A stretch of 64,000 nt of DNA, from contig NC_017946.1 in the NCBI RefSeq assembly GCF_000263735.1, forward strand, positions 413,348 through 477,347. Direction: 5' to 3'. Source of the stretch: Pyrococcus sp. ST04. Lineage in GTDB: Archaea > Methanobacteriota_B > Thermococci > Thermococcales > Thermococcaceae. Of this stretch, positions 35,558 through 41,804 are shown one piece after another (the stretch's first letter is position 1; the number at the start of each line of letters is the position of its first letter). A program made the translations under genes and the position numbers. The notes beneath the pieces were generated by a model that was not told the DNA's origin, ran no database searches, and saw only the letters and a program-made list of their open reading frames with translations.

Positions 35558-35971
35558 ATGGGATTTTTCAAATCCTTAAAGAAGGTAGCGACGGACTTAT
35601 CGAAGCAGTTAAGGGAAAAAGAAGTTGAGATATCTGCCAGAGATCTTGCAGAGAAGTGGGATAAGATAAAGTCTTACAAGCCAAAAATAGGAATTAAAAG
35701 AGGAGGAGAGACCTACTGGTATCCTCTAGAGAGAGTGTGGACAGAAAACGTTGAGGTAGGCCTATTTAGGAAGTCTCAGAAGGAGATAGTTTTCGTTGAA
35801 TATTGGGAACCGAATACTTATTATGACGAGGAAGAAGAGGAAGATAGAGGTTGGTTTGAGGAAGAAGAGTACATAAAAACTGAGCGTTTCTCCCTGGATG
35901 ATAAGGTTCGTCTTCGTTTCACCCTCGCAAACTATGAGAAGCTTGTTGAGAGGGAGGGCGAAATTTTATGA
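35558..35971 (+). CDS. Small acidic cytoplasmic protein, unknown
   Basis: The 137-residue product has no signal peptide. A basic N-terminal helix and a middle KIGIKRGGETYWYPLERVW are followed by a very acidic run (about 88-108, with DEEEEEDRGWFEEEE). GGGGTGGTAAG precedes the ATG. Its stop overlaps the next start by 4 bp (ATGA), placing it first in the surface-protein operon. No family was recognised. Confidence 0.7.
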   Translation: MGFFKSLKKVATDLSKQLREKEVEISARDLAEKWDKIKSYKPKIGIKRGGETYWYPLERVWTENVEVGLFRKSQKEIVFVEYWEPNTYYDEEEEEDRGWFEEEEYIKTERFSLDDKVRLRFTLANYEKLVEREGEIL

Positions 35972-36564
35972 GAAAGAGGTTCTCTGCTTTTCTTATTATT
36001 TTACTCACAACAATTGTCATAATTGGGGGATGTGTAGGAAATTATGGACCTCTTACGAAGACTAAAGAGGGGCAGGAAAAAACTGTGCCTAAAACATCTG
36101 AAGTTGAGGAAAATAACACTCCCTCATCCACTAAACCTGAGGAGATATCGGTTAGAAAGAAAGGAGTAATTAGGACAAACATTATGAATACTACTATTGC
36201 GGTAAATGCCTCTCTACTTCCACAAGCTACCTTTGAATGTCTGGACAGGGCTCCGGATGTTGTTCTCTCATACTATCAGAGGGTTGAAGAAGAGGGAGAT
36301 GTTAGAGAGTTCTTTGATCTTGATGTTGTAGATGAGCTTTCCCTAGTAGAGCTTCATAATGCCTTATATCGGGCGATTGACTTTAAACAGCTCAATGTGA
36401 GGAATGTAACATGTGCCATCGTTAGCATTAACATGGTTGCATGTGAGTATGAGTATTCCGCTAGCATAGTCAGAAATGGGGAGGAGAAGTTAATTCAGAG
36501 GAAGTATGTAACTTTCTTGAACACGGACTCGTGTAAGATAGTGTGGACGGAGGAAGAAGGATGA
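35968..36564 (+). CDS. Lipoprotein, unknown function
   Basis: The 198-residue protein has a signal sequence ending in the lipobox IIGGC, so Cys22 should be lipid-anchored on the outer membrane face. A Thr/Lys/Glu-rich linker (about 27-70) leads to a small C-terminal domain with cysteines in TFECLDR, NVTCAIV, MVACEYE and TDSCKIV, which could form two disulfides. It overlaps both neighbours by 4 bp, so it is translated in a tight operon with them. Confidence 0.75.
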   Translation: MRKRFSAFLIILLTTIVIIGGCVGNYGPLTKTKEGQEKTVPKTSEVEENNTPSSTKPEEISVRKKGVIRTNIMNTTIAVNASLLPQATFECLDRAPDVVLSYYQRVEEEGDVREFFDLDVVDELSLVELHNALYRAIDFKQLNVRNVTCAIVSINMVACEYEYSASIVRNGEEKLIQRKYVTFLNTDSCKIVWTEEEG

Positions 36565-39293
36565 AGAAGTGCATTTTCTTGTTCGTACTCCTTCTTCTCA
36601 TTGCAATGTCCTTGAACTTTCCTGTCATAAGTCAGGGCAAGCCTGACATTGATACAGATGGGGATGGACTAAAAGATTATGAGGAGCGGAATATCTATGG
36701 TACTTCCCCTGTATCCTTTGACAGTGACGATGACGGTGTTGGAGATGGCTACGAGGTGATGATAGGGAGTGACCCACTTGATAGTGATACTGATTCTGAC
36801 AGGTTGAGCGATGGTGAGGAGCTTGCACTTGGAACGAGCCCTCTCCTAAAGGATACGGATGGTGATGGGTTGAGTGATTACTTTGAGGTTGTTACGTTGC
36901 CAGAGGTCTATAAATTGCCTCCTTCAAATCCAACGAATCCAGACACAGATGGTGATGGGCTTAGCGACGGCTTTGAATGGGAGCATCATGGTTCAAACAT
37001 GAAAAGGTATCTCAACCCAGATGAAGATGGTGATGGTATTAAGGATGGAGATGAACACTATTTTGTAAGTAGTGGATATGGGGGAGTTCACCACTACTCA
37101 TGCGATTTTACGCCTGACTGCGACGGTGATTTCATTCCAGACAACGAAGAGCTCAGGCTTGGAACACTCCCCTATAACCCCGATACCGACGGAGATGGAT
37201 TACCAGACAACCTTGAGCTTAAATTTGGATCCAGTCCCTTCGATGTTGACACGGATGGAGATGGCATAAGTGATTTCAATGAAGTTCTACCCGAACTGAT
37301 TTATGAATTCAAAAAGACTGAAAACCTTAGTGCGTTTCTTGGGCGTTCAGTCCCGAATAGGTTGGAATATGAATGGTGGGGAGCATTTGTCTCAAACTTC
37401 CTTAACACTACAGATACCTGTGTCCCGAGTATGAGGGAATTAAGATATTACCTAGAGCTAAACTTAAAGTTGCTTAGCGTTCCTCAAAGATATATTCGTA
37501 CTGGAATGCACAGCTATCTAAATCCATTATTTACAGCAGATTATGCGGAGAGATACGAGAAAGGGGAAATACATAGTGATAATGCGGTATGCTACTTTGG
37601 CATCCCAACTGATCCGACTAAGTACGATAGCGATGGCGATGGATTGAGTGATTACGAGGAGATGCACTACACCGTTATCACTAGGACAAAGCCAGGAGGA
37701 AAAATAAGGTGGATAATGAGAGTCCATGAGTCTGATGGAAGACTTGACATGACGGAAATGGATCAGTTAAGACCATTAATTCTCGATCCAAACGATCCGG
37801 ACAGCGACGGTGATGGAATAATAGATTCAGAGGATCCAGTTCCAGTTAAGGATGACATAGATGGAGATCTTTTAAATGAGCAGGATGTCTGTGCCTACTA
37901 CATTGATTGCGATGGAGATGAAATATCCGACTATTATGAACATATACTTGGAACTGATCCAAAGAATCCTGATACAGACGGGGATGGTTTAACAGATTAT
38001 GAGGAGATGGGCCAGTTTGGAGTCATTTCGTTGTGGCAGGATTATCCTTATAATATTCCCTTGGATAACCTTACTGTTCCCACTAAAACGAAATATTGGA
38101 GGTATAGCGATCCTCTCAACCCAGACACGGATGGAGATGGGTTTACGGATTTCCAAGAGAAGGAAGCCGGAACCGACCCAACAAATCCGAAAAGCCATCC
38201 TAAGGAACTCTCTACAGTTCAAAAGCCCAAGTATGAAAAAACTCCAGAATTAAAGAAAGCTCCAAAGTACGAGGAGAGGTACAAAGTTGAGTTCATGATA
38301 AACGGAAAGAAGATAAAACCTGGAACTTCGACTATGATACTTGACACTGACAGCATTACACTCGAAATTAAAGCTCATCCAATGAAAATTATTAAAGATA
38401 ATGAAACAGAGGAAATCGTCGCAAGGAAAATTGGACTTTATTCCAGGCTGACAGAGTACACAGAGGTTTCGGAGGACACCTTCACGAAAACGTTAACCCT
38501 TGAAAACTTCACCGATGTGGGACTGGCTTTTGTAGAGTTCCGGGTATCGGTTTATTATGGTGAACACAGGAGAGACTTGGAATATGATGTAATGTTCAAG
38601 TACAAAACCCTTCCTCAAGTTGAGCTTGTAAATGCTACTTGGAGCAACTATCTGGACGTTGGAAGGCTAACTCTTGAGTGCAGATTCTGCAAAAATATCA
38701 CGATAATAGTTCCAGGAGCCCTCGTTAATGGTAGGAAAAAGAGAATTATTGAGTTTGGAGAGACCAAACCACTCAAATATGTTTATGCCAGAATAATTCC
38801 CCACCGCTACATCGTTGCCAGTCAGTCGGATGTGGGAACAATCTACACTAAGTACGAGGACACCGTTGAGGTACTGAAGACTGGCAAAGATATCGGCTTG
38901 CTAGCGGCCAAGGCTGTTGAAGCCAAGAGCCTGGGATCAAAGATAATTTACGGGATGGTGGCGACGGCAAAGGGCATAAAAACTATAGTTGGTGGGGTTG
39001 AAGTTTTCATACCTGAAGAGGAGGTGGAAAAGCCTGAGGGTATAGACACACCAGAATCTGCAAAGTTCGATAAAGAGGCATTCAAGGAAGGAATCCTTGA
39101 TTGGGTGAAGGAGAAGATCGTCGATGCAACCTTCGACTACGTCACCGAAAAGGCAGTTGAATATGCAGATGCCAAGGAGCTCGAGGCAAGGAGGCACGAG
39201 ACTACCTACAGGGTTACGGTCAAAGCGTGCAATGAATTCGGATGTAAAGCGTTTGCATTCAGCGTTAATGGATATGCTTACGACTTTGAGTAA
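36561..39293 (+). CDS. Secreted protein with about 14 thrombospondin type-3-like calcium repeats
   Basis: The 910-residue protein has a signal peptide (1-25). The region to about 550 carries about 14 copies of D-x-D-x-D-G-(L/I)-x-D-x-x-E, the Ca2+-binding loop of thrombospondin type-3/dockerin-like repeats, with spacers of different length. Two repeats are preceded by paired cysteines (CDFTPDCDGD, CAYYIDCDGD), which suggests disulfide bracing. A Lys/Pro linker leads to one or two beta-sandwich domains (about 565-770). An amphipathic Ala/Val-rich stretch and CNEFGC near the C-terminus follow. No C-terminal membrane anchor is obvious. ATG at 36561 overlaps the upstream stop. An upstream in-frame start lacks support. 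Confidence 0.82.
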   Translation: MKKCIFLFVLLLLIAMSLNFPVISQGKPDIDTDGDGLKDYEERNIYGTSPVSFDSDDDGVGDGYEVMIGSDPLDSDTDSDRLSDGEELALGTSPLLKDTDGDGLSDYFEVVTLPEVYKLPPSNPTNPDTDGDGLSDGFEWEHHGSNMKRYLNPDEDGDGIKDGDEHYFVSSGYGGVHHYSCDFTPDCDGDFIPDNEELRLGTLPYNPDTDGDGLPDNLELKFGSSPFDVDTDGDGISDFNEVLPELIYEFKKTENLSAFLGRSVPNRLEYEWWGAFVSNFLNTTDTCVPSMRELRYYLELNLKLLSVPQRYIRTGMHSYLNPLFTADYAERYEKGEIHSDNAVCYFGIPTDPTKYDSDGDGLSDYEEMHYTVITRTKPGGKIRWIMRVHESDGRLDMTEMDQLRPLILDPNDPDSDGDGIIDSEDPVPVKDDIDGDLLNEQDVCAYYIDCDGDEISDYYEHILGTDPKNPDTDGDGLTDYEEMGQFGVISLWQDYPYNIPLDNLTVPTKTKYWRYSDPLNPDTDGDGFTDFQEKEAGTDPTNPKSHPKELSTVQKPKYEKTPELKKAPKYEERYKVEFMINGKKIKPGTSTMILDTDSITLEIKAHPMKIIKDNETEEIVARKIGLYSRLTEYTEVSEDTFTKTLTLENFTDVGLAFVEFRVSVYYGEHRRDLEYDVMFKYKTLPQVELVNATWSNYLDVGRLTLECRFCKNITIIVPGALVNGRKKRIIEFGETKPLKYVYARIIPHRYIVASQSDVGTIYTKYEDTVEVLKTGKDIGLLAAKAVEAKSLGSKIIYGMVATAKGIKTIVGGVEVFIPEEEVEKPEGIDTPESAKFDKEAFKEGILDWVKEKIVDATFDYVTEKAVEYADAKELEARRHETTYRVTVKACNEFGCKAFAFSVNGYAYDFE

Positions 39294-39335
39294 TCTTTCT
39301 TTTTTTCTCTTTCGTCATGAAAGGGGGGTTTTAAG

Positions 39336-41804
39336 ATGAGGAAACTCCTTGTTTTGGCTTTAGCGTTTATGTTAGTTGTGGTAGTCAGCGGATGTGTGGG
39401 GAAGACCTCTCCAACAGGAAGTCCCCAGCAAGAGACATATTCAGAACAGATAGAAACATCGACTCCCACTCCCACTAGCCAGGAACAACCCAAGGAAGAG
39501 TCATTGACGCTTGAGGAAATCTTTTCACTGGTACATTTTGAAGGCATCGATAACGGGATAAAAGGGCTGAAAATATGGGTTGAGGGTGCTACCTGGGTTA
39601 GTGATAGCAACTCTTTCAAGGCTCAGTTCCCACCAGACAACTTATTTTACTCTAGAGGAGTTCTTTACGTTATCAATAACACCCCTGAGTATGGTGGGGG
39701 GTACATTGAAAGTGGAAAAGTAGGTAGGGTCTATTATATTGCCCTAAGGGTGCCCTTTGAGCTTAAGGAAGCCAGTTATTCTGGACTGCCAATGGCTATA
39801 GTGGCACTCGATGAGCGCGGTACTCTCCATTTAGTCAAGTACTCCTCAAACTACGAGTACTGGCCTAGTGAGGATAATCCACAGGTTCAGTATCTTCGTG
39901 ACGTTGAGGGTGACATAACGTGGGATTTAGGAGCCAATAGACTTATCTCTGGGCCGGATTATTCAATGGAATATGCCTACTATGTTGCATGGAACAATAA
40001 AAAGTTGTACACCCTAACATTTACTGGAGAGAGTCTAAATGACCTACTTGAAGGGATTGGAGAAAAGCCGTCGCCTAAGGAGTTCCATTTTTCCGACATC
40101 AAGGACGTTGTAATAGGGTGGAATGGTATATACGTCCTTAGCGGAGAAGGATTGACTGTCATAAAGCTGGGAGACGAGCCGGAAATTAGCGAGAATTATA
40201 GAGTAACAGGCTACATGATGTCGGTTCAGCTTTCAAGAAGTGATATAGTGGCGGTCTATGACGGAAGCAAACTAACGCTAATTTGGGTTAGGGATGGAGA
40301 AGTAGAATCCTCCAAGGAATTCAGCCTTCCTGGGTATGAGAAGGTTTTCATCCATCTTCCTCAACGGGATGACTTAGAAACGGTTGAGATAAGTGGAATT
40401 AATGGAAAATTAATTGACTTCTACACAATATCAGGAAACAGAATAGAGAAAGTTTTTTCGGGAGAATTACCCGAAAGGCCTACATGGTTGGTGGCAACAA
40501 AGGAAGAGGAGAATGGGGGAATAATGGTATCTTTCTGGGGTGAAGATAAAGCCTTCTACTATCTGTGGATTAGAGAAGGAGGAGAAAAGGTGGAAGAATT
40601 TACAAAAACTGAGGCCCCAAGTGAATCAACCAAAACTAAAACAACAACGGAAACCCCGGAGGAAAATCTCTTTAGTTACTTTGAAATAAAAACTGTTCAT
40701 CTGGACAATCTTGAGGGAGTTGCAATAGAGGTAAAAGATGCTCCAACTTTCAGAAATGTGAAGCCATGGTTCGTAGGAAAAGGGGGCTATGAAGTTTCAG
40801 ATTTGTCCGAGGCATACTTTGCAGTTGGGAATAAGCTGTACGTATTCTCAGGGGTGGGTCTGAAAAATAAATATGTTGATGGGGAGGATGTAACGTCTTC
40901 CTTTAGCGGTGAGGTCTATATTCTGCCGGCTGGTGTCAAGGATTTGGCTTATGGAAGTAAAATATTCTTTGTATCGACGGACGGGAAATTATACCTAGCC
41001 TATGACTTTGAAAGTGACGAAGTGAACAGAGAAGATGCGACATTATACATAAGGAAATACACCAAGTGGGTGAGCTGGAGCCTAAACGTCGAGGGCGTTA
41101 CGGCAATGTCCAGTGGAGATTACCACAACTATGTGGCATGGACTGGAACCAAAATCTACATCTTTGTATATTCTAACGACGATCTCTTCTACGCTGATGA
41201 AGAGGGGTTAGAAGCAGTGAAACCTAAGACATTCACATTGCCAGAAAACATAGAGGCAGTGTTTGTTGATAGGTATGGATATGGCCTTATAATAAGAACC
41301 GAGAATGCCCTCTACTTCCTGGACACAAGCGGGAGATATGGTTACGGTAAATGGCACCTCTATAAACTAGGGGAGGATCTAGAGGGAAGAATCAGTTACA
41401 ACTTGGAAACGGGAATCATAACATTGTTCCATAAAGGAAAGTTCTACTGGTTGGAAGTGTACTCCGTGTATGACGAAAATGACGAGATGGTGCCCAAGCT
41501 GGAAGTTAGGGGAGAGGTGGAGTTCAAGGATGAGGTTGATGCATTCTCGCTAATGTACAATACGTACGCTTACCAGCTCATCGTTGCTACGCCTGGTGAA
41601 CTAAGGATATACAATGTGACAATTGACTATGAAGAATCTAGCATTGTCCTTGATCAGAGTTTTAGCGTTCCATTCACTCCAGATGCAGTTTACGGTGAAG
41701 ACTTCTGCTACTGCCACGTGAATAATTACGAGAATTACTTCTACTTATGGGCTGGAAAGACTTATTACTCCCTCATAGGGCCAAATAATGGGAGATCTGA
41801 GTAG
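39336..41804 (+). CDS. Large lipoprotein with two similar beta-propeller-like halves
   Basis: The 822-residue protein has lipobox VVSGC (Cys20) and a Thr/Pro/Gln linker (about 24-55). A first beta-rich region (about 60-420) follows, then a second Thr-rich linker (about 430-450) and a second beta-rich region (about 455-815). The halves share wording: 'YYVAWNNKKLYTLTFTGESL' resembles 'NYVAWTGTKIYIFVYSNDDL', each followed by 'PKxFxxxxxIxxVxxxxxGxxI'. This points to an internal duplication of a propeller-like domain. GGGGGG precedes the ATG. A 42-bp gap from the calcium-repeat gene suggests one operon. Confidence 0.78.
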   Translation: MRKLLVLALAFMLVVVVSGCVGKTSPTGSPQQETYSEQIETSTPTPTSQEQPKEESLTLEEIFSLVHFEGIDNGIKGLKIWVEGATWVSDSNSFKAQFPPDNLFYSRGVLYVINNTPEYGGGYIESGKVGRVYYIALRVPFELKEASYSGLPMAIVALDERGTLHLVKYSSNYEYWPSEDNPQVQYLRDVEGDITWDLGANRLISGPDYSMEYAYYVAWNNKKLYTLTFTGESLNDLLEGIGEKPSPKEFHFSDIKDVVIGWNGIYVLSGEGLTVIKLGDEPEISENYRVTGYMMSVQLSRSDIVAVYDGSKLTLIWVRDGEVESSKEFSLPGYEKVFIHLPQRDDLETVEISGINGKLIDFYTISGNRIEKVFSGELPERPTWLVATKEEENGGIMVSFWGEDKAFYYLWIREGGEKVEEFTKTEAPSESTKTKTTTETPEENLFSYFEIKTVHLDNLEGVAIEVKDAPTFRNVKPWFVGKGGYEVSDLSEAYFAVGNKLYVFSGVGLKNKYVDGEDVTSSFSGEVYILPAGVKDLAYGSKIFFVSTDGKLYLAYDFESDEVNREDATLYIRKYTKWVSWSLNVEGVTAMSSGDYHNYVAWTGTKIYIFVYSNDDLFYADEEGLEAVKPKTFTLPENIEAVFVDRYGYGLIIRTENALYFLDTSGRYGYGKWHLYKLGEDLEGRISYNLETGIITLFHKGKFYWLEVYSVYDENDEMVPKLEVRGEVEFKDEVDAFSLMYNTYAYQLIVATPGELRIYNVTIDYEESSIVLDQSFSVPFTPDAVYGEDFCYCHVNNYENYFYLWAGKTYYSLIGPNNGRSE

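Follow-up and report, generated by a model that had tools for sequence, protein, structure and literature searches.

A horizontally exchanged gene cassette of Thermococcaceae, possibly encoding a cell-surface recognition or adhesion system

Introduction

Little is known about how archaea recognize their neighbours, adhere to one another or distinguish kin from strangers, and the locus described here touches on this question. Most archaeal lipoproteins are uncharacterized (PMC8416519). The locus lies in a stretch of 64 000 nucleotides of the Pyrococcus sp. ST04 genome (positions 413348–477347 of the single-contig 1.737 Mb genome; hereafter the window, in which all coordinates are given unless a locus is named). 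An earlier note, made from the letters of the window, had described at 35558–41804 a set of four tightly overlapping genes matching no known pathway, and had proposed a surface adhesion, matrix or calcium-dependent complex. Do these genes form one unit, and what might such a unit do?

Results and discussion

Organization of the locus

Open reading frames of the window place four plus-strand genes, A, B, C and D, at 35558–41804, as the earlier note had it. They are flanked by valS on one side and by a cobalamin-pathway aminotransferase gene on the other, both on the minus strand, and their base composition is unremarkable. Gene A (35558–35971) overlaps gene B (35968–36564), and gene B overlaps gene C (36561–39293), by 4 nt each, as ATGA. 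The description as tightly overlapping is thus correct for A/B and B/C but not for C and D (39336–41804), which are separated by 42 bp (39294–39335). Within this gap, the T-rich sequence ctttctttttttctctttc may act as a partial terminator. Scans of the locus with promoter and terminator models gave no excess over shuffles; these models are bacterial and not applicable to archaea. The start of C is most likely ATG 36561, six codons inside a GTG-started reading frame, rather than GTG 36543, because of the ATGA overlap with the B stop codon and of the ribosome site GGAGGAAGAAGG.

Proteins encoded by the cassette

Gene A, the family marker of the cassette, encodes a protein of 137 aa with a pI of 5.0 and no signal, hydrophobic or transmembrane segment, in agreement with its previous description as an acidic cytoplasmic protein. 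Its N-terminus is a basic amphipathic helix (MGFFKSLKKVATDLSKQLR) with a helical hydrophobic moment of 0.65, this moment being at least 0.41 in every homologue with a correctly read start, and its middle part contains an acidic DEEEEE stretch. The helix is predicted to lie on the membrane. Gene B encodes a lipoprotein of 198 aa, in which lipobox Cys22 is followed by a Ser/Thr/Glu-rich linker and a C-terminal domain; the four cysteines already noticed in this domain (Cys91, Cys149, Cys159 and Cys189) are invariant across nine homologues. Matches to B in almost all genomes of the family reflected similarity of the leader and linker, not of the domain, and were discarded.

Gene C encodes a protein of 910 aa composed of a signal peptide, a thrombospondin type 3 (TSP3) stalk (residues ~29–540) and two Ig-like domains, the first (Ig1) at ~570–681 and the second interrupted by an insert (~755–877 of the ATG form; 38823–39191, plus strand). 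The stalk matches PF18884 (TSP3_bac) with an E-value of 1.8e-43 and 146 bits for a cut-off of 25, over 11 stretches. The strict DxDxDG pattern is found 14 times in the GTG-started reading frame, three matches overlapping another, which leaves 11 distinct loops; composition shuffles contained 0.1 on average and two at most. The protein had been described as secreted with about 14 Ca2+ loops: the signal peptide and PF18884 match bear out the first part, whereas a count of about 13–14 is reached only if degenerate loops are included. From these motifs, C is expected to bind Ca2+. Conservation is uneven along the protein, with a mean pairwise identity of 81% in the insert, 75% in the last Ig strands, 54% in the stalk and 39% in the fast-diverging, internal Ig1. 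The C-terminal model has a pLDDT of 62, falling to less than 50 across the insert; Foldseek matched the predicted Ig regions, with low TM scores, to PECAM-1, titin and other Ig-fold or adhesion proteins. It was also observed that residues ~245–350 of C (~37293–37610) interrupt the TSP3 stalk with a stretch that exists in two allele types, the core of which is 5–14% identical between types and ~50% within a type; this stretch is a candidate second variable domain.

Bacterial TSP3 proteins, among them myxobacterial CglD and MtsD, which NCBIfam names link to gliding motility and cell–cell cohesion, share with C the tandem DxDxDG calcium loops and the secreted stalk. The likeness is confined to the repeats, however, and the scores of the whole C protein (119 of 400 bits for CglD, 49 of 800 bits for MtsD) are both under the curated cut-offs. 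Plasmid matches to C likewise involved TSP3 repeats only.

Gene D encodes a lipoprotein of 822 aa (lipobox Cys20), for which the AF2 model is a tandem double beta-propeller with a pLDDT of 80, as anticipated by its first description as a duplicated propeller-like lipoprotein. Structure matches were tandem WD40 proteins such as Utp21 (4nsx), which also have two propellers per chain but share ~10% sequence identity with D, itself secreted, lipid-anchored and shuffled; TM scores were low because the domain orientation differs. A fifth gene, E, is often part of the cassette: it encodes a cytoplasmic protein of 165 aa, 79–96% identical between the eight genomes that carry it, and is always inside the A–D locus. 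Sub-threshold chance matches were all that Pfam, NCBIfam, PADLOC and PHROGs returned for A, B, D, E and the C-terminal Ig and insert region of C; no toxin, defence, viral or enzyme family matched the cassette proteins, and no PADLOC model matched A–E.

Distribution, linkage and pairing of B with C

The Thermococcaceae and the rest of the phylum were searched. Family A is present in 23 of 115 genomes, all Thermococcaceae, and roughly one in four of the sampled members of this family carries the cassette. All 14 genomes with B, all 10 readable genomes with C and all 8 genomes with E also encode A, as do 18 of the 19 with D (16 strong direct matches, G055 and a fragment in G047; the 19th consists of contig-end fragments in an incomplete genome that lacks A). 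The probabilities of falling inside the A set by chance are 2e-12 for B, 2e-8 for C, 8e-7 for E and 1e-15 for D, so that chance co-occurrence is excluded, by a statistic that ignores relatedness. Physical linkage is the stronger argument: the parts of the cassette are adjacent in every locus read, in the order A-B-C-D (A first and C third in the window) or D-A-B-C, and the families are linked in up to 23 genomes. Hence, the proposal of a single module, for which the neighbourhood of the four families in Thermococcales was the proposed check, is upheld as regards co-occurrence and linkage.

A and D occur without B and C in some genomes, and A-B-C without a detectable D in others; therefore, not every part is needed everywhere. 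In five metagenome-derived loci (L078, L084, L085, L086 and L087), a run of 2727–2763 N, standing for masked or gapped sequence, extends from inside B over the position of C, which is why C is not readable there; one of these genomes (G058) is nevertheless counted among the ten with C, owing to a short C-terminal fragment. This N run, of 2.73–2.76 kb, also accounts for an artefact seen in five genomes, an apparent fusion of B to a 1100-aa protein. In two loci without B and C, a small predicted lipoprotein is encoded upstream of A (L081:12288–12884 and L077:3752–4282); it may stand in for B or be an insertion that has nothing to do with it.

B and C travel as a pair, and the strictness of this pairing, together with their translational coupling, keeps alive a reading in terms of antagonism, akin to polymorphic toxin systems: C would be a contact-delivered effector carried on a TSP3 stalk, the insert its active part and B, although it matches no immunity family, the immunity protein. 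The archaeal polymorphic toxin systems resemble the cassette in being secreted, accessory and shuffled and in having a stalk. One protein of a haloarchaeal plasmid, annotated as having a PBECR2 nuclease-fold domain, contains TSP3 repeats as well, and no part of C is better conserved than the insert. However, the cassette has no toxin domain, and 20 loci contained neither additional C-terminal cassettes nor arrays of immunity genes. The C-terminal end shows conservation instead of polymorphism and has no match among toxin or nuclease families, and the hydrophobicity of the insert peaks under the transmembrane level. We consider antagonism unlikely on account of this constant C-terminus and of the lack of a match to any toxin family.

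Exchange of domains and alleles between genomes

D proteins were cut at their Ser/Thr/Glu linker, and a tree of all propeller domains distinguished types N1, N2, C1 and C2. The window D is made of N1- and C1-type propellers, as are those of L069 and L070; N2C1 is found in L071–L075, N1C2 in L076–L083 and N2C2 in L086. Relatives of D with a single propeller are present in the same loci (N2 at L069:15197–16363; C2 at L074:9713–11173 and L075:12966–14423), and are free-standing halves of D and possible shuffling intermediates; the C2-type single-propeller proteins seem to have no lipobox. Near the end of the second propeller, all C1-type D proteins carry a CYCH motif (Cys791, Cys793 and His794 in the window D; 41706–41717), which may bind a metal or form a vicinal disulfide; N2 has a cysteine pair, and N1 and C2 have neither. 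Either relaxed constraint or diversifying selection can account for the fast evolution of D.

Different parts of the window cassette group with different genomes. The stalk and Ig1 of C group with those of L075 and L076, and grouping with L069 is rejected (AU P of 1e-6 or lower; lnL −77 for the stalk), whereas B and the C-terminal propeller of D group with L069 and reject the grouping of the window with L075 and L076 (AU P of 0.007 and 2e-4 respectively). A leans the same way as B and the D C-propeller, not significantly (AU P of 0.08). As judged from these phylogenies, cassette parts reassort between species, D and C being mosaics.

Genomic site, gain and loss

Among the 18 loci fetched outside the genus of the window, a gene for an AEC-type (auxin-efflux-type) permease adjoins the cassette in 17, and an M42 peptidase gene also adjoins it in 10. 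In 14 genomes free of the module, the permease and M42 peptidase genes are directly adjacent and form an empty site. In Pyrococcus, the cassette occupies a different site from the permease site of Thermococcus, and the valS–cobC slot of the closest relative contains no module but two unrelated reading frames, one methyltransferase-like and one MFS-like. The empty permease–M42 site and the module-free valS–cobC slot indicate that the cassette is gained and lost as a unit.

Adjacency to a permease gene, and often to a peptidase gene, in Thermococcus could suggest that a ligand outside the cell, for instance a polysaccharide, a peptide or a metal, is captured by D and C and passed on to transporters, the permease and M42 peptidase being partners. 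Ligand binding by lipoprotein propellers and Ig domains is common to many systems, and the conserved CYCH motif of the C1 propeller would fit such a capture function. Nevertheless, the two genes lie side by side without the cassette in 14 genomes and so do not need it, the cassette is sited elsewhere in Pyrococcus, and neither enzyme nor transporter genes move together with it; capture of a substrate or polymer is in our opinion quite unlikely.

The 14 empty sites, the accessory distribution, the shuffling and the fast divergence would also be compatible with virus-driven surface variation, the cassette being a virus receptor or a block to adsorption, and its gain, loss and shuffling reflecting escape. 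We regard this as improbable: the viral contig collection, searched for A and C, encodes no relative of either, no PADLOC family matches, and receptor variation alone would leave the conserved cytoplasmic partner A unexplained.

A possible cell-surface recognition or adhesion cassette

Several features together point to an accessory, horizontally exchanged cassette for surface recognition or adhesion: the proteins carry secretion signals and lipid anchors, C combines a calcium stalk with Ig-like domains and D has propellers, there is an insertion site, and binding domains are exchanged while a core stays constant. We favour this function tentatively, at somewhat less than an even chance. The original proposal of a surface, calcium-dependent complex is in line with the signal peptides, lipoboxes and TSP3 loops as regards location and predicted calcium binding; the specific roles below are conjectural. 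C would be exported and, once bound to Ca2+, would form a rigid TSP3 stalk presenting the fast-evolving Ig-like domain. Its conserved C-terminal insert would bind a partner that does not vary. The simplest candidate is lipoprotein B, which is inherited together with C and would hold it at the membrane, although an anchoring by D may also be envisaged. D would provide a second, interchangeable binding surface as a lipid-anchored tandem propeller. On the inner face of the membrane, A, attached by its amphipathic helix, and E, where present, may have a role in assembly or signalling. Because cells differ in their D propellers, C allele and presence of B and C, surface specificity would vary between strains and species.

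A narrower version of the recognition or adhesion reading, in which the cassette serves modular self/non-self recognition, appears rather unlikely: strain identity would result from mixed D propellers, C alleles and an optional B-C pair, brought in as a cassette to one chromosomal site, and A and E would relay contact inwards. The cassette is a bounded, testable unit of four to five genes; close relatives with an empty site provide a control, D offers domain swaps made by nature, and calcium is a handle.

Comparison with VARTIG

A search of open-licence papers found no description of the A–D module, which the earlier note had presented as a candidate for an undescribed system. The nearest described system is VARTIG, a hypervariable Ig-domain gene module of Thermococcales, the hallmarks of which are a large Ig protein of the arCOG07710 type encoded first in the operon, a C-terminal D[ND]NxxxG[GD] motif and a hypervariable C-terminal Ig domain (PMC8416519). 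Both are accessory islands restricted to Thermococcales, which encode secreted or membrane Ig-like proteins with one fast-varying Ig domain and recombine between species; the cassette fits this pattern by its presence in 23 of 115 genomes, all Thermococcaceae, and by its shuffling. In contrast, judging by order, size and domains, the first gene of the cassette in the window encodes the 137-aa protein A, devoid of Ig domain. None of the A–E homologues has the DNNxxxGG-type motif in its last 25 residues, and the variable Ig domain of C (Ig1, 39%) is internal and followed by a conserved insert (81%) and last Ig strands (75%). The genomic site is also different, and so is the make-up of the cassette, with its TSP3 stalk, lipoproteins and propellers; of these terms, the VARTIG paper uses 'lipoprotein' alone, once, in its introduction (PMC8416519). 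Since motif, gene order and C-terminal hypervariability all differ, membership was rejected, and the cassette is, on the basis of these comparisons, analogous to VARTIG but not a member. VARTIG is then not the sole shuffled surface island in Thermococcales.

Finally, a gene set encoding zinc-ribbon proteins, a coiled-coil protein and an SPFH/band-7-like protein with zinc ribbons was observed next to the cassette in several genomes (L069:4283–7715, L076:15788–19000, L082:4726–8135, L085:70–1555 and L087:3516–6892).
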